A stretch of 40,592 bases of DNA, taken from contig PAHI01000050.1 of assembly GCA_002705575.1 (NCBI GenBank), positions 1-40,592 on the forward strand, read 5' to 3'. This document shows positions 32,337-39,949 of this stretch, piece after piece. The first letter of the stretch is position 1. Each line of letters starts with the position of its first letter. The position numbers were made by a program, and so were the translations under genes. Source of the stretch: Fidelibacterota bacterium. GTDB lineage: Bacteria; Marinisomatota; Marinisomatia; SCGC-AAA003-L08; GCA-002719095. The notes beneath the pieces were generated by a model. That model was not told the DNA's origin. It made no database searches and saw nothing but the letters and a program-made list of their open reading frames with translations.

Positions 32337-32600
32337 CTACCTCTTACTCACTCTATAATGAACTGTAATTGCTTTGTCCGTAGCTCGTATTTTTGGAAAA
32401 ATTGTACTATCTACTGTAAATAAAAAACCAGAATTTTCAACTGCAGAAAGAGCCACGTCTCTCCAATCACTTCCATCCCAACTTTCTACATCTGGTTCAC
32501 CACTTGTTCCTGCTACAATTAAAATTTCGTCTGCGTAAGGAGGTAATTCAAATTCCTCATTTTGTGCTAAACTCTTACTTTGACTTGCTACTCCTGCCAT
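32337..32600 (-). CDS. Small beta-module virion protein (paralogue 1)
   Basis: An 87-residue protein with the pattern FELPPYADEILIV (17-29), a short acidic turn, VESWDGSDWRDV (38-49), and a closing strand FPKIRATDKAITVHYRVSKR (68-87). The same order of motifs appears in the next two genes upstream, where LPP/MPS is followed by ExSxDxxxW and a final IRV/MRV strand. These three appear to be paralogues of one small beta sandwich. This smallest form may be the basic building block. The virion role is inferred from position beside fibre and adhesin. Confidence 0.65.
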   Translation of the reverse strand: MAGVASQSKSLAQNEEFELPPYADEILIVAGTSGEPDVESWDGSDWRDVALSAVENSGFLFTVDSTIFPKIRATDKAITVHYRVSKR

Positions 32601-32610
32601 ATATTACTCC

Positions 32611-33147
32611 TTAAAAAGTTGTCCAATGTACTGTTGCTACACATTTTCCCCCTGTAGAGGCACCATCGTGTATAATTACTCTTATATATTGCATTAATGC
32701 TGTATTAATTACTTGACAAGTACATACACCTGAAGTTGAACTACATTGCATATTTCCAGGTTTATTCTCGTCATCCTCTGTATAATGAATAGGATTTCCT
32801 GAGCTATCTACTACAGGACACCAATTCTCTCCATCTGGACTCATTTCTAAACTCATTGAACAATTACATACTGTACAAATTGCACAAAATGCAAAATCCT
32901 TTGCCTGTGAAGGCATTACAAAAGGTTTACTAACATTATATCTTGCATCGTTTGCCCCAATACTATCTAAAGGACATATTCCAAATTTATCAGAAGTTGT
33001 ACCAGTAACTGTATTTTCTACAGAACAATTACCTATATTATTAACACCGTCTGCACAATATTGTAATGTTACTGAACTTTTTACGCCATCTTTAGTTTCT
33101 AACACAGTATTATCAAATTCAAATGTATGGTGAAATGCTGAAGCCAT
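32611..33147 (-). CDS. Cysteine-rich beta-module virion protein (paralogue 2)
   Basis: A 178-residue protein with 12 Cys. After a variable N-terminus (1-75), it carries FVMPSQAKDFAF (76-87), then MSLEMSPDGENWCPVV (98-112) and a final YIRVIIHD ... VATVHW strand (154-175). These match the first ~75 and last ~90 residues of the giant adhesin (LEMSYDKENWCPAV and MRVKWSG). Clustered CTVCNCS and CTC pairs suggest disulfides or metal sites, unusual for phage proteins assembled in the cytoplasm. It overlaps the adhesin stop (TAATG). Structural role inferred. Confidence 0.68.
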   Translation of the reverse strand: MASAFHHTFEFDNTVLETKDGVKSSVTLQYCADGVNNIGNCSVENTVTGTTSDKFGICPLDSIGANDARYNVSKPFVMPSQAKDFAFCAICTVCNCSMSLEMSPDGENWCPVVDSSGNPIHYTEDDENKPGNMQCSSTSGVCTCQVINTALMQYIRVIIHDGASTGGKCVATVHWTTF

Positions 33148-36100
33148 TATTTTTTTCTCCTTCTAAACCAAAGTTTTGCTCTACATTTATCTTCCCCTAA
33201 GTCGCAACTTCCTGCTCCACTCCATTTTACTCTCATATGAGCTAATTTTGGTCCTTTTATTATATGTTGTTGTATACTACTTGGAGCACATCCACTAATT
33301 TGTACAATATTAGATTGTAAACCACCTTCTGTAGTTTCTGAAGCTGGTGCTACATACATTGTAATCCCATCTGCAGTAATGTCTCTACTGTATAAAGTGC
33401 CAGACCCTGAGTCTGAAGTAGCTAAAGCATCTGTGTCTGTATGTTGCATATTTATAGCAGTAATATCTCTATCTGTAATTTTAGGATTACCTTCATGACC
33501 TCTAACATCTTTAACAGATTCAGAGCAATCATTTAGAGTGTCTCCCCATCTATAGTAGACTTCCATACCTCCTCCAGGATTTGTAGAGGCATCGTATGGA
33601 TTAGGATTTATATATTGATCTTGTGTTGTAGTAGTTACGCCTGCAGAAGAAGGTTGTCTTAAATTATATGGTTTTTTCCTATTTTGGTATTCTGCTGCAA
33701 CTGCAAAAGTAATTCCATAAATTGTTAAAGGTTTTTCTCCATTGTAATTAGTAGTAGAACTCCACCAATTATCTGAATGAAATGAGCTTTCATCAAAACC
33801 GCCCTGGAATGCGTAAATTGAATCAGTAATATTTGTTTCTACAAAACCACTTGCTAAATATGTTGTAGGCACATATTCTGCTGCACTATTTTCATGCCTT
33901 AAATGTTTATTTTGTATTACAAACCCAGTTTCTCCTTCTTTAGATAAATTATATCCTGACACTGATCCTGCTCCAACAATATCTTCTAAAGATTGTCCGT
34001 CATAAGATACTACAAAATGAAAAGGCTGATCAGATCCTCCAACTTGAGTTTTTCCATATCTAATTTCGTTTTCAGATAATGCAGTTCCTGCATGAGCTGT
34101 AGTACCTTGGTAAGATAATGTAACTGAGTGCCATCTTCCATCTAATAAATTTATTGTAGTGCTTCCGATAGTTTGTGTAGTATTGTAGGCTACCCAATGT
34201 TCGGCATCACTTTCAAATCCATTAAAAGATAAAATTAGTCTAGCAGTTTGATCTTGACTTTCTACCCAAGTACCATCATCTTTTAAATTTTTAGTCATAG
34301 ATAAGGTTAATCCTTCACCCTTAACTGGATTTACTAAATAAGTAGAATCTGAACTTGTCATAGTAACTAAACCATTTCCTCCAGATACAAAATTATTTAA
34401 AGTTAAATCTATATTATTAGATGTTCTATCATTTGCTACTGTAATAGAGTCGCCTGCTTCGTCAAATGTCCACCAACCTTCTACATTAGAATAAGTTAAA
34501 GTATTAGACATTTGGTAATTATGTGGTTTACCTTCAAAACTACCGTTTTTACCGTAAAATTCTTGAGCTTTAGCTAAAGTTGTAACTTCACTATGTAAAG
34601 ATAGGTTGTCTAAAGCTCCTTGAAATGCATAGATAGAATCTGTACTTGCTGTTTCACCCCACCCAGAAGCACCAAAAGTTCCTGGCACAAAAGTTCCAGT
34701 TGTATATTTAAAATGCTTGTCTGCTGCAGTTTTATTTAATTTATTATTTCCTGAATCACTTATAGATAATTCTACACCATCTGCAAAAACTTTTACATCT
34801 TCTGTATCTGTAGAAGATCCGTCCCAAGTTAATTGTAAGTTATGCCAATTTCCGTCTAATAAAGATGACGCATCATAGGCATTAAAAGCATCTGATGCAT
34901 CTTCAAATCCATCAAAACTTAATAATAATTTTGTAGTTTCTGTACCTGCTGGATTCCAAGTTGTACCACTCCCTAATTTTTTAGTAAATGAAGCAGTCAA
35001 CCCATTTCCAAAAACATCATAAGCTGCTGCCCCTGCTGCATAAAAAGAATCCCCTGAAGACAAGTTACCAAAAGTTACACTTGATCCTACAGTACCTGTA
35101 TGCTTTCCTGCGGAATCAGTGCCGTCACTGTTTTCAAATCTGTAATATCTTTTAAGATCAGAACTTTCTATAGTAGATAGATCTTTAAAATTTCCTGAAT
35201 TATATAAATCATTTTGAATTTGGGTTGCAGTAAGTACTTTTTTCCAAATAGCAACCTCATCATATTTCCCAACTTGACCTTGGTGATATCCATTTGCCGG
35301 ATATCCTAATCTAAATTCTCCAGTTGAGGAGGTGTCTGACGTGGTGTCATCTAACCAAGTACTACTAGTAACCTGAGCACTAGGGGTAACTAAAGAGCCA
35401 TCAACATATAATTTCATATTATTAACTATGTCAGGACCAGAAAGACCATCTGCTGCATCTAGTATTAACTGAGGTCCGTCATAGGTAACAGTATAATGGT
35501 GCCAAGCATCTGTGCTAATTCCTAAATTAGTTGTAGTGTAATCTAGGTACCCATAGGATGAGCCACTAGATAACCACCATAACCACAACTTACTTTGTCT
35601 AAATGATACTTGAAATCCTTTCCACTGCCCTACGCCAGGAGATGTATCATAAGCATGTCCGGGACTGAAAACAATATCATGAATAGTTGATGTAGTTATA
35701 GATGGTACATTCATCCACCAACTAATTGTAAAGGTTGATGTTCTTCTATCAAACCAAAAGTTGTCACCACCATCATTAAAATCTGCCTGGGCACCCATTT
35801 CAATTTTATAATTTGTAGTAGTCCCAGTTAGTTCTGTGTACTTTGTGTTTGACGGAACTGCGGGCACAGTATTTTTTGCACCATTATTAAAAAGCACAGG
35901 TAGATAATTGTCTGTATATGAATATGTTGTTGCTACGGCTATTGTTTCAGAAGATGCATCTGCCAAAGTTCCATATGAAGTATTTGACCAGCCTTGTGAA
36001 AATGTAGTTCCATTTGTAGTAGTTTCAGGTATTAATTTTGCAGTTCCTTTACTATCTCTTAAATATGCATTGGTTGCATCTGAAGCATCATATAAATTAT

Positions 36101-38285
36101 CTCCTGCAGTATCTCCACATCTAAACCAGTTCAAAAGTCCTGTTTCATTTGCTAAATCAGTTGGATCTCCTGAATTATATAAAGCAGAAATTTTTGCTGA
36201 AGAAGTTCCACTTATGTCTGAACCTAAGTCTACTGTCCACGTAGATACATTAGATAAACCATGATCCATTGGGTAATAATTATTCATACTAAGAGATTCA
36301 GATCCAGAATGTCCAAAAGTCATGCGCAGATTATCTGCTGTGGTAGTCCAGTTCCCCATTGTAGCTGTGTAACTTGCATCTTTACATACTCCGTCAATCC
36401 ATAATTTCATGTTTGATGTAGTGCTACCTACTGTCCCATTTGTAGAACTTGAAGAAGCTGCATTGGTAATTACAACATGATGCCAGCTGCCATCAAGTAA
36501 AAGAGCCCTTGCAGTAGAACCATAATTTATTTGTGCATAATCACTACCTGAGCCATGTCTAGCAAAAAGATATAAATAGCTTCCTGAGTTTCCTGTATAT
36601 AAAATAATTCTCTTGTTTGCATCATCAGGGTTTCTCATGTCCCAAATTATTCCATATGTATCACTGTCTGTGTATTTGAACCAAAAAGATATGGACCAAT
36701 TTCCATTGGGTTTAAATAAAGTAGCTGAGGCACTTGAATCCCAAAAAATAGAATCAGTCCTCATTCTTTGCTCAAAGCTTGCTGATTTGTTTGTTTCATT
36801 ATTGCAGTCTAGGTATTTTGTAACACCAAAAAGTTGAGTTGATGAGACTGCAGGTTGCTCATTACTTTTAATCCACGTATTTACTGAAAAAGGTTTGTCC
36901 GCGCCCATCTTGGAGTGAAAAATATCTCCAGTAAAACTTACTTTCATATTTTGATCTGGTGTACTTGATGTAAGATTTAAAACCCCAGTAGGTCTTGTAG
37001 CATCTCCATTTCCTGACCAGGTTGTAGTCCCATTTCTTTCTGGGACAAGATGCATCCCATTTCCAGTCATGTCATAAATATACTTTGTAGTTCCATGAAT
37101 AGAATCTACATTAGATGTATTACTTAAATCATAACCATCTCCCATCCAGTACCAGTTTTTTAATCCTGGAGTAGAGTCTGTAGAGATGTGAGATGTTAAA
37201 TTTTTAGGTTTGCCTCCATTCCAAATAAGACTTGAAACTTCTGACTCACTTAATTCTTTATCCCAAATAGTATGGTCTGAATAAGTTGCATCAATACTGG
37301 AGTTATCAATTATATATTCAGAAACAGAGCCTGGGTCCATTATTGCCCCAGTTGTTAAATCTGCACTTGCCCCACTTTGATTGGATGCTGTGACCTTAAC
37401 TCCATTTACATACAAATTTAAATTATCATAAAATTCTGATAAATTATCTGTTCTTGTTGAGTGAGTTATGCACCAATTGATCCATTTTTGATCTGAAGCA
37501 GTATAACTTGGAATTTGGTATTCTATATAGGGATCATTTCCAGAAACCCTGACAGAAAGCTTTATAATTCCAGCAGAGCTTAATTCCATTCTGAACCAAG
37601 TAACAGTGCTATTTAGTAAGTATGTAAAAAATAATCCATTTGCATCTGTGTAATTGTCAGCCAATTGCATAAACCCTGATAGTGACCAATTTTTTGTACC
37701 ATCAAAATCTACTGTTTGATTAGTCACGCCTGTTGGGCTTTTTAAGTATTGTTGATGACCATCAGAATCATAATGCTCATTATATACTGCAACCATTTTT
37801 TGATTTTTAAAAGCAGAACCAGTATCTGTAGCACTAGGTACTGTCTCCGATTTATGCCACCAATTAATGTTAAATGGCTTATTTTTTTGCATAAAATTAT
37901 ATAATACGTCCCTAGCGGAGCCTCCAGGATTACCTGAAGTATCATAAGTCTTTTTACCTTGGCAATATTTATTTTTTTTAACACCTGTGCCAGGAATTGT
38001 ATCTAAATATCTTGCGTTTCCCCATCCTGTAATAGATGTACCAGCAGCATACTCTTCAGTTACCGCCGGACACCAATTTTCTTTATCATAAGACATTTCT
38101 AATTTTGCATCAACAACTCCACTTAAAGAACTATCACATACGCTTGTAAATATAACATCTGTTGCGTTTGGAGGTAAAGTTACTACATCTCCTGTAATAT
38201 CAACTCCACCACCCTTACCTTTTCCATCAGAAACTGCGCCATCATTCGCTTTAGTTGTTAAATCTCTTTTATCATTAGACGACAT
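33147..38285 (-). CDS. Giant LamG-domain adhesin, putative receptor-binding protein
   Basis: A 1712-residue protein, the largest gene. Residues 34-75 hold TLPPNATDVIFTS and KLEMSYDKENWCPAV; the last ~90 end with HMRVKWSGAGSC and a Lys/Arg tail. Between them lies an array of concanavalin-like LamG domains, seen as recurring strand motifs ending in a WH pair: W-x-x-W (about 270), DGSWHHVVIT (about 595), DAWHHYTVTYDG (about 924), DGNWHNLQLTWDG (about 1141) and DGRWHSVTLSYQG (about 1379). The last two domains are clear duplicates, both ending TDSIYAFQG (about 1213 and 1485). LamG domains bind glycans, so this is a candidate host-recognition fibre. Confidence 0.85.
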   Translation of the reverse strand: MSSNDKRDLTTKANDGAVSDGKGKGGGVDITGDVVTLPPNATDVIFTSVCDSSLSGVVDAKLEMSYDKENWCPAVTEEYAAGTSITGWGNARYLDTIPGTGVKKNKYCQGKKTYDTSGNPGGSARDVLYNFMQKNKPFNINWWHKSETVPSATDTGSAFKNQKMVAVYNEHYDSDGHQQYLKSPTGVTNQTVDFDGTKNWSLSGFMQLADNYTDANGLFFTYLLNSTVTWFRMELSSAGIIKLSVRVSGNDPYIEYQIPSYTASDQKWINWCITHSTRTDNLSEFYDNLNLYVNGVKVTASNQSGASADLTTGAIMDPGSVSEYIIDNSSIDATYSDHTIWDKELSESEVSSLIWNGGKPKNLTSHISTDSTPGLKNWYWMGDGYDLSNTSNVDSIHGTTKYIYDMTGNGMHLVPERNGTTTWSGNGDATRPTGVLNLTSSTPDQNMKVSFTGDIFHSKMGADKPFSVNTWIKSNEQPAVSSTQLFGVTKYLDCNNETNKSASFEQRMRTDSIFWDSSASATLFKPNGNWSISFWFKYTDSDTYGIIWDMRNPDDANKRIILYTGNSGSYLYLFARHGSGSDYAQINYGSTARALLLDGSWHHVVITNAASSSSTNGTVGSTTSNMKLWIDGVCKDASYTATMGNWTTTADNLRMTFGHSGSESLSMNNYYPMDHGLSNVSTWTVDLGSDISGTSSAKISALYNSGDPTDLANETGLLNWFRCGDTAGDNLYDASDATNAYLRDSKGTAKLIPETTTNGTTFSQGWSNTSYGTLADASSETIAVATTYSYTDNYLPVLFNNGAKNTVPAVPSNTKYTELTGTTTNYKIEMGAQADFNDGGDNFWFDRRTSTFTISWWMNVPSITTSTIHDIVFSPGHAYDTSPGVGQWKGFQVSFRQSKLWLWWLSSGSSYGYLDYTTTNLGISTDAWHHYTVTYDGPQLILDAADGLSGPDIVNNMKLYVDGSLVTPSAQVTSSTWLDDTTSDTSSTGEFRLGYPANGYHQGQVGKYDEVAIWKKVLTATQIQNDLYNSGNFKDLSTIESSDLKRYYRFENSDGTDSAGKHTGTVGSSVTFGNLSSGDSFYAAGAAAYDVFGNGLTASFTKKLGSGTTWNPAGTETTKLLLSFDGFEDASDAFNAYDASSLLDGNWHNLQLTWDGSSTDTEDVKVFADGVELSISDSGNNKLNKTAADKHFKYTTGTFVPGTFGASGWGETASTDSIYAFQGALDNLSLHSEVTTLAKAQEFYGKNGSFEGKPHNYQMSNTLTYSNVEGWWTFDEAGDSITVANDRTSNNIDLTLNNFVSGGNGLVTMTSSDSTYLVNPVKGEGLTLSMTKNLKDDGTWVESQDQTARLILSFNGFESDAEHWVAYNTTQTIGSTTINLLDGRWHSVTLSYQGTTAHAGTALSENEIRYGKTQVGGSDQPFHFVVSYDGQSLEDIVGAGSVSGYNLSKEGETGFVIQNKHLRHENSAAEYVPTTYLASGFVETNITDSIYAFQGGFDESSFHSDNWWSSTTNYNGEKPLTIYGITFAVAAEYQNRKKPYNLRQPSSAGVTTTTQDQYINPNPYDASTNPGGGMEVYYRWGDTLNDCSESVKDVRGHEGNPKITDRDITAINMQHTDTDALATSDSGSGTLYSRDITADGITMYVAPASETTEGGLQSNIVQISGCAPSSIQQHIIKGPKLAHMRVKWSGAGSCDLGEDKCRAKLWFRRRKK

Positions 38286-38682: not shown

Positions 38683-38733
38683 AAAACCCCCCGCAAAAGC
38701 AGGGGGAACTAGGCAGGGAGAAACCTAGTTTTT
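38683..38733 (-). terminator. Double hairpin terminator after major capsid gene
   Basis: On the minus strand the sequence first forms AACTAGG/CCTAGTT (38730-38724 and 38713-38707), then an 8-bp stem CCCCCTGC/GCGGGGGG with a TTTT loop (38706-38687), followed by TTTTAGG: a typical intrinsic terminator. The first hairpin is followed by five T on the plus strand (38729-38733), so it could also stop antisense transcripts. Partial stopping here would give more capsid protein than downstream products. Confidence 0.85.
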
Positions 38734-39949
38734 ATACACTAAGATTCTTTAAAACCCCATGAAATGCAGGATTGATATAGATATTAAAATATCCGCCATA
38801 TCTTGCTTCATAAGAGTCTTCAGATGCATGTCTTAAGAAAACAGTTCCATCATCATCAAACCAACCGAAGTCAGGTCTATGATAAAAATGGATGTGGTTA
38901 TCATTAAGAAAATACACTTTATCATCATCACAAAATCTTTCAGGAAAAATCCCTACTGGACCTGAAGATGACATAAATTCTACACCAGAAAAAGATACAT
39001 CAGCACCAGATTTAGTTTTTAAACCAGCTCTAGTAGAAACAGTATATCTTTTTTGATCTTCTAGTAAGTTTAGAATTTTTTCATATTGCTTGTATGAGCA
39101 AACAATAAGGTTAGGTGCTTTACCACACTTTTTTTCAACAGAAAGCATTACTTTATTTAAAAGATCCGTTGATACAGCAGCAGATAAAGCATTTTCTTCT
39201 ACAGAAGACCATCTTCTATCTGAAGTAATACCATAAGCATTTTTACCACCAGAAGCTTTCTGTATTACTCCTGCCAACCCTTCTGGGTCATTATCTTTAG
39301 AATTTTGCATATATATAGAAGTAAGAGTAGATCCTCCAGTAGCAGAAACAGATGCACTTAAAGTAACTTTTTTTGCGTCTGGGTCTACAGCTAAAATTTC
39401 TAAACCTTGAGCTTTAACAGAAACATTACTTGATCCGTCGGTTTCAGTAATATCTACTAAATCACCTTCTTCAAAATTAGCTTCCTTAAAAGAAGCATCA
39501 GTAATAATCATATCTGCTGAGCCAGAACCAGAAGAAATATCTCCTAATTTACCTGAACCATCACTGAAAAGAATTCTAGAAAGGTTTCTCATGTAAGATT
39601 CTACACCTTTTTTAACTACTTCTTTAGTAGCTCTAACAAAAGATCCTTCATCTTTCAAAGCAGCCTTAATAGTTTCTCTATCAATTTCTACTCTAGCATA
39701 TACTTTTTTTGCTGATATTTCAGCTTTTCCATATTTTGCCTTACTTGCAGTAGGAAGACTTCCTGAACCAACACCACCCGCAAAAGATTGGGGTACTGCA
39801 ATTCTCATCTTTTCACCTACAAAATTATAACTCTTTTTACATCTACCAAGTAAAACATTGGCAGAATTATAGATATTTTCTGAGAGTTTCTCATATTTTA
39901 TCTTAAAAAGAGCACCGGCATCATTTAAATTAAATTTTCCAATAGCCAT
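38732..39949 (-). CDS. Major capsid protein (HK97-like fold)
   Basis: A 405-residue capsid subunit. Gene order (portal, scaffold, capsid), copy-number-boosting terminator behind it and length all fit. Visible family marks are the N-terminal helix NDAGALFKIKYEKLSENIYN, MRIAVPQSFAGGVGSG, the KAEISAKKVYARVEIDRETIKAA spine-helix region (about 72-94), and the C-terminal GYFNIYINPAFHGVLKNLSV strand. The middle shows an E-loop/A-domain-like series of strands (MIITDASFKEANF, VTLSASVSAT). It starts with AGGAG six bases upstream. Assignment by context and fold-like composition; a lysine crosslink cannot be judged. Confidence 0.88.
   Translation of the reverse strand: MAIGKFNLNDAGALFKIKYEKLSENIYNSANVLLGRCKKSYNFVGEKMRIAVPQSFAGGVGSGSLPTASKAKYGKAEISAKKVYARVEIDRETIKAALKDEGSFVRATKEVVKKGVESYMRNLSRILFSDGSGKLGDISSGSGSADMIITDASFKEANFEEGDLVDITETDGSSNVSVKAQGLEILAVDPDAKKVTLSASVSATGGSTLTSIYMQNSKDNDPEGLAGVIQKASGGKNAYGITSDRRWSSVEENALSAAVSTDLLNKVMLSVEKKCGKAPNLIVCSYKQYEKILNLLEDQKRYTVSTRAGLKTKSGADVSFSGVEFMSSSGPVGIFPERFCDDDKVYFLNDNHIHFYHRPDFGWFDDDGTVFLRHASEDSYEARYGGYFNIYINPAFHGVLKNLSV

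Follow-up and report, generated by a model that had tools for sequence, protein, structure and literature searches.

The window, a virus record of 40,592 bases (contig PAHI01000050.1), carries three minus-strand open reading frames (ORFs) downstream of its capsid gene, encoding proteins of 1712, 178 and 87 amino acids (aa) that we call the giant, P178 and P87; a preliminary description of this DNA gave their coordinates correctly. We consider it likely (probability roughly 0.75) that the three are cement-type paralogs and that the giant is a split jelly roll holding nested, exchangeable LamG domains. At the level of sequence, we could show that the module is split, that the outer LamG is split and has empty as well as filled sites, that its opening and closing parts occur in balanced counts, and that LamG units move.

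Both ends of the giant match one small module

The split of one beta module between the two ends of the giant was confirmed by profile comparison. In the window, residues 76-114 of P178 match the giant's N-terminus with 41% identity (E 6.9e-5). A hidden Markov model (HMM) of 95 positions, built from 12 P178 orthologs only and searched against 4,735 ORFs from 88 loci (L numbers below) and the window, matched giant N-termini with its positions ~2-42; C-termini were matched as well, at ~50-94, in 8 complete giants that remain distinct when near-copies are counted once. Shuffled ORFs gave 0 matches at E<1 and reversed ORFs gave 2, at 0.022. With an HMM of uninterrupted relatives, the C half was recovered at 1e-6 in L028 and at 3e-4 in L039. 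By hhalign, the P178 family scored 98.9% against the giant N-terminal family (giant-N) and 97.1% against the C-terminal family (giant-C), the uninterrupted family scored 97.5% against each, and giant-C scored 93.2% against the P87 family; giant-N against giant-C, the negative control, scored 0.1%. With 97.9% for the P87 family against the P178 family, these values bear out the preliminary claim that the 87-, 178- and 1712-residue products share a module. Every one of the long ORFs (n = 462, at least 300 aa) that passed the N or the C filter was a giant gene. The two halves overlap at the junction on the uninterrupted profile, and the junction can therefore be placed only to within ~10-20 profile columns.

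That adhesive-type domains were inserted into a loop of a small protein, as had been proposed, is supported by the consecutive profile halves, by uninterrupted proteins at the same position in 19 loci and by separate C-half ORFs. In L022/L023 and in L041, the C half is an ORF of its own of 60/61 residues, with its own start codon and in a different frame (L022 15704-15886; L041 13264-13449). By eye, a purine-rich stretch precedes each, and the L022/L023 and L041 sequences are identical at 26 of 60 positions. A 97-aa ORF without a Pfam match lies between the C-half ORF and the LamG ORF of L041. Circular permutation of the module was also considered and rejected, as the halves keep their order. 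As a separate observation, the giants of L008/L045 (one contig) and L009 have a second insert of ~330 aa (giant residues ~42-373) in another loop, at profile positions 17|22.

LamG domains appear to be nested within the insert

The window giant scores 99.8 bits against Laminin_G_3 (PF13385), for which the curated cut-off is 27.6. Among eight relatives' giants scanned, those of L022, L028 and L041 lie above this cut-off and that of L012 below it, those of L037 and L039 pass the Laminin_G_2 cut-off, and those of L013 and L009 match no Pfam family. Two loops of the outermost LamG contain further LamGs, so that this domain is interrupted as well. Thus, the preliminary description was right that the module is split by LamG sequence, but the plain LamG row it envisaged does not hold: the insert is a split outer LamG that contains others. 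In alignments with complete inner LamGs, the opening part of this domain (O) corresponds to the first strands (72.6%) and the closing part (C) to the part after them (95.8%); O and C are unlike each other, and the predicted fold joins the outer domain as one LamG.

Opening and closing parts balance in all 15 assessable giants, reading OC in 10, OOCC in 3 and neither part in 2. Nine of 25 giants were left out as truncated (L006, L009, L011, L019, L027, L031, L038, L053 and L058), and L015 and L002, which are separated by 10 unseen bases on a single contig, were taken as one giant. A C match had to begin at profile position 5 or below and an O match at 3 or below; removing two C matches by hand (L028 258-404, L013 298-415) gave the same strings. 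A plain tandem LamG array was rejected, as double giants read OOCC and never OCOC. On this reading, the window giant would have the architecture jelly roll [ LamG1 [ LamG a, LamG2 [ LamG b, LamG c ] ] ], with a depth of three. We infer which opening part pairs with which closing part (O1-C2 and O2-C1); in giants with two such pairs, the outer C is similar to the C of giants with one (mean score ~323 vs 173-192). The features of the window, with independent E-values given as i-E, are as follows.

33147..38285, minus strand: giant protein, 1712 aa, putative split cement-like module with nested LamG insert (Pfam Laminin_G_3, E 2.2e-28, 3 stretches)
38058..38183, minus strand: N half of the predicted jelly-roll module, giant residues 35-76 (P178-ortholog HMM, modB, positions 3-41, i-E 2.6e-4)
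37821..37916, minus strand: opening part O1 of outer LamG 1, residues 124-155 (O HMM, i-E 1.1e-16)
37200..37733, minus strand: inner LamG a, approximately residues 185-362 (strand order by eye; a motif pattern picked 200-358 for the inner-LamG alignment)
36846..36932, minus strand: opening part O2 of outer LamG 2, residues 452-480 (O HMM, i-E 3.8e-13)
36156..36722, minus strand: inner LamG b, approximately residues 522-710, site 1 of outer LamG 2 (inner-LamG alignment, residues 530-706)
35880..35915, minus strand: second strand of outer LamG 2, residues 791-802 (O HMM tail 28-39, i-E 0.25 alone)
35022..35864, minus strand: inner LamG c, residues 808-1088, site 2 of outer LamG 2 (best Laminin_G_3 stretch 849-1024)
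34578..35018, minus strand: closing part of outer LamG 2, residues 1090-1236 (C HMM, i-E 4.1e-44, positions 1-199 of 200)
33762..34325, minus strand: closing part of outer LamG 1, residues 1321-1508 (C HMM, i-E 3.6e-74, positions 2-199 of 200)
33150..33359, minus strand: C half of the predicted jelly-roll module, residues 1643-1712 (row of the giant-C family, 2e-27 by construction)
32611..33147, minus strand: P178, complete module (profile match 75-178) with an N-terminal extension of its own
32337..32600, minus strand: P87, short complete module (hhalign: P178 family 97.9%, uninterrupted family 98.6%)
38732..39949, minus strand: major capsid protein (MCP), upstream neighbour (phrog_14242, E 9e-35; PF17236 SU10_MCP, E 6.1e-8)

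Residues 481-790 of the window giant, which include inner LamG b, are 88% identical over 309 aa to a stretch of L015 at the same site, and the strand-2 motif of outer LamG 2 also stands at the corresponding place in L015, L003 and L019. By eye, the insert of the L041 giant starts, at ~105-320, with cadherin-like rather than LamG repeats. Elsewhere, the window has matches to an SU10-type capsid and adaptor and to terminase, portal, primase and DNA polymerase; the 667-aa gene after P87 looks tail-like by eye.

Filled and empty sites in related giants

Site 1 lies between LamG strands 1 and 2 and site 2 between strands 2 and 3. We compared 8 sequences, three of which (P0083, L026 and L029) were unmatched by the strand patterns and not counted. 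In shells 83-94% identical to that of L028, strands 1 and 2 are 9 aa apart in L028 and 281-315 aa apart in P0080, P0081, P0082 and P0084, and strands 2 and 3 are 6 aa apart in P0084 and 275-367 aa apart in the other four. Site 1 is thus empty in L028, site 2 is empty in P0084, and both are filled in P0080, whose two LamG units are 60% identical to each other. In the distant giant of L013, too, site 1 holds an insert, and site 2 is almost closed. At the DNA level, the flanks of site 1 are 98% and 95% identical between L015, where the site is empty, and L019, where it holds ~860 bases.

From one phage to another, LamG units that are 83% identical or more are found at different nesting sites. The LamG in outer 1, site 1 of L019 is 83% identical over 281 aa (DNA 84.6% over 844 nt) to inner LamG c of the window, which is in outer 2, site 2; the LamG in outer 2, site 1 of L019 is 84% identical over 288 aa to that in outer 1, site 2 of L015; and the unit in outer 1, site 1 of P0084 is 88% identical over 43 aa to a truncated unit in outer 2, site 2 of L015. 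Complete giants with both halves range from 826 to 1712 aa, and one 5'-truncated giant has 2,063 aa. These size differences and the units present, absent or moved agree with the earlier suggestion that variation of the insert may build diversity. Recombination would be the mechanism by which units are gained, lost and swapped. Between the window and the L015/L002 contig, the last third of the giant is 94% and P178 96% identical (window 32611-34685 vs L002), whereas terminase is 84%, portal 74%, capsid 70% and P87 35% identical, which suggests block exchange between these phages.

Resemblance of the module to a capsid cement protein

We regard the module as a probable jelly-roll capsid cement or decoration protein of the Bbp16 type. 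Bbp16 (PDB 3j4u chain H; Pfam PF21190; PMC3863775), the cement protein of Bordetella phage BPP-1, is a small jelly roll of 140 aa. This protein is the only PDB match at E<=1 of the uninterrupted family profile (E 4.3e-5), and it is the best of 16 PDB matches of a combined module profile (9.4e-4). Gene placement agrees with this type, as bbp17 and bbp16 are adjacent in BPP-1 and a module gene lies just downstream of the capsid gene here. Bbp16 has no inserted domain, whereas the window encodes three paralogs, one of them of 1712 aa. On this reading, the three proteins would be located in the virion and bind the capsid. The module apparently also forms the C-terminal part of phrog_9522 (positions 126-238).

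Related loci and capsid tree

Relatives, all metagenomic or virome contigs, were gathered with the capsid protein (80 of 154 loci kept) and with P178 (11 loci). Among these loci, L004/L042, L005/L039 and L008/L045 are each a single contig, and L022/L023 and L065-L068 have identical ORF sizes and HMM matches. The order capsid gene, giant, P178-like gene, P87-like gene recurs in 11 distinct loci with enough sequence (L012, L013, L022/L023, L028, L037, L005/L039, L041, L004/L042, L048, L049 and L056). The search that the preliminary description proposed, for relatives lacking or varying the insert, was productive: among the other capsid-gene loci (n = 83; some share a contig), 42 have an insert-type gene and 19 an uninterrupted module of 110-121 aa at the giant's position after the capsid gene. 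In these 19 loci it lies +448 to +534 bp from the capsid gene, with one ORF of 109-126 aa in between in each of the 5 for which neighbouring ORFs were listed. Three further loci have an uninterrupted module 4-5.6 kb away, and 19 gave no module at the thresholds used. Eight of these last 19, in the insert-bearing tree set, are uninformative because their contigs stop inside the capsid gene or fewer than 450 bases beyond it; L033, L050, L062 and L072 had no module match in the 4-10 kb downstream of the capsid gene.

In L033 and L050, with 10 kb downstream covered, other proteins occupy the place after the capsid gene. Extra paralogs also stand between the capsid gene and the giant, of P87 type in L039 (8647-8952) and in L008/L009/L010/L045, and a 135-aa P178-like one in L007 (5203-5610); module genes thus vary in number and order.

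In a capsid tree of 69 of 85 rows, leaving out fragments below 380 aa and identical rows, a 42-row set (100/96) holds all insert types and a different set holds the 15 uninterrupted rows. A single origin of the insert would agree with this, in a tree that does not root the change; the permutation figure of 3.3e-5 ignores kinship. By tblastn, no record of a phage collection matched the giant (E limit 1e-5), P178 (0.1) or two uninterrupted modules (1e-3 each), and the MCP matched 12 records, mostly Arthrobacter phages, all at 22-24% identity. The sole match among genome contigs was an MCP of 46% identity, on a contig assigned to an Epsilonproteobacteria metagenome-assembled genome.

Alternative explanations

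The likelihoods attached to the alternatives below are not mutually exclusive. Several observations weigh against our interpretation of the module. C-half matches to the P178 HMM are individually weak (i-E 0.004 to 1.0), and the C half of the window giant scores 0.8 bits, those of L012 and L003 also matching near nothing; the window C half was assigned through the giant-C family. The model of the L028 giant is poor overall (predicted local distance difference test score 56.5), the packing of its ends is not directly visible, and Foldseek found no match for it with E <= 0.001 and one for P178. The 0.8-bit score, and the fact that no model with packed ends was obtained, would suit an account in which the ends are independent small domains flanking ordinary tandem LamGs and resemble P178 through convergent short beta motifs. 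We regard this account as highly unlikely, because several relatives show consecutive halves, each half matches by profile while the halves do not match each other, uninterrupted proteins occur at the same locus, and matches among long ORFs are confined to the giant gene. The cement assignment likewise meets contrary results: Bbp16 is absent from the 15 PDB matches of the P178 ortholog profile alone, 3j4u is absent from the 50 fold matches listed, and among 31 module proteins the Pfam families met most often are DUF6385 (11, 1.6e-4) and F5/8C (4), and Bbp16 is matched by 2 (best 0.02). Moreover, phrog_9522, labelled 'major tail protein', matches 9 of the 31 (best 3.4e-9) and meets uninterrupted modules with its positions 126-238 of 241 (best 1.3e-7 among the matches listed), so that the module may also decorate tails. 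This label and the tail-like gene after P87 favour a real, split module that decorates the tail or neck and makes the array a tail-borne adhesin. We think this rather unlikely, given the module's place directly after the capsid gene in the window, its relatives and BPP-1, and given that a capsid cement protein is the sole PDB sequence match of the uninterrupted family.

The nested arrangement also has points against it. The window giant yielded no strand 2 for outer LamG 1, and that of LamG2 is weak alone. The two O's of double giants are about equally like those of single giants, with the second O of L003 scoring higher, and the pairing given above therefore rests on order. If O and C were separate domain types that co-occur in tandem, without LamG-in-LamG nesting, the short O HMM (40 positions), the unlikeness of O and C and the low model confidence between them would be expected; however, O fits the first strands of inner LamGs and C the remainder, counts balance in the order OOCC rather than OCOC, the predicted fold unites O and C in one LamG, and every junction is closed in some relative with an 83-94% identical shell, which makes such co-occurrence very unlikely. 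Presence and absence patterns could in principle be assembly chimeras between repeated LamG sequences, in contigs of metagenomic or virome origin, P0084 being one member on one 4,576-base contig. We regard such chimeras as highly unlikely, because the arrangements recur on independent contigs (L013, 35 kb; L015, 34 kb; P0082, 5 member sequences) with reading frames intact throughout.

Discussion

In our preferred explanation, a small jelly-roll protein whose gene follows directly after that of the capsid has given rise to three paralogs, the giant, P178 and P87. In the largest of them, a jelly-roll loop would have been opened to hold a LamG domain, which in turn would be opened in two of its own loops to hold further LamGs, one of them opened again. 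The two chain ends would together make up the jelly roll that anchors the protein to the capsid, and the array would then project from the capsid as a loop attached at either end. Recombination may add and remove LamG units and swap them between equivalent loops, altering what the particle sticks to and leaving the capsid-binding surface untouched; the LamGs would bind carbohydrates or receptors. Each paralog may have its own positions on the capsid; the giant may be a minor component, because hundreds of 1712-aa copies seem unlikely.

To our knowledge, phage decoration proteins mostly bear adhesive domains end to end. T4 Hoc and other decoration proteins with Ig-like domains (PMC10385173; PMC7602432) have a capsid-binding domain with a variable row of beta-sandwich domains that have a presumed adhesive role. 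The giant would work like these proteins in this respect; however, Hoc joins its Ig domains to a C-terminal capsid-binding domain, whereas here the putative binding domain is split and the LamGs are inserted and nested. Phage coat proteins with Ig-like insertion domains, such as BIG2 of phi29 (PMC7602432), also place a beta-sandwich domain within a capsid-shell protein, in that case one Ig-like domain in the coat protein and here a LamG in a cement-like protein, with more LamGs inside. The array resembles Laminin_G_3 and concanavalin A-like lectins (PF13385) by profile, and its outer domain does so by predicted fold, but unlike the usual PF13385 domains, those here are opened at two defined loops and hold further copies. 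Literature titles and abstract openings, with most subscription journals outside coverage, yielded no report of a split cement protein or a nested phage LamG.

We tentatively propose, at somewhat less than even odds, a recursive display in which each outer LamG takes LamGs in two loops, units hop at any depth, and the split cement anchor is completed in trans by a 60-residue protein in some phages (L022/L023, L041). In the L041 giant, the P178-profile match extends beyond the N half to position 69; we judged this extension doubtful, and it may mean that more of the module is kept, which would weaken the in-trans part of the proposal.

These giants carry putative adhesive domains inside one another, and each site occurs naturally both empty and filled. 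Natural alleles could thus be used to test how well a fold tolerates insertion and how giant virion proteins grow. They point to a possible route by which phages vary surface binding while the capsid contact stays fixed. If true, recursive display would be a route to receptor-binding diversity that differs from both the swapping of tail fibres and diversity-generating retroelements. As far as its genes indicate, surface-binding arrays in this uncultured marine phage family seem to grow like Russian dolls.
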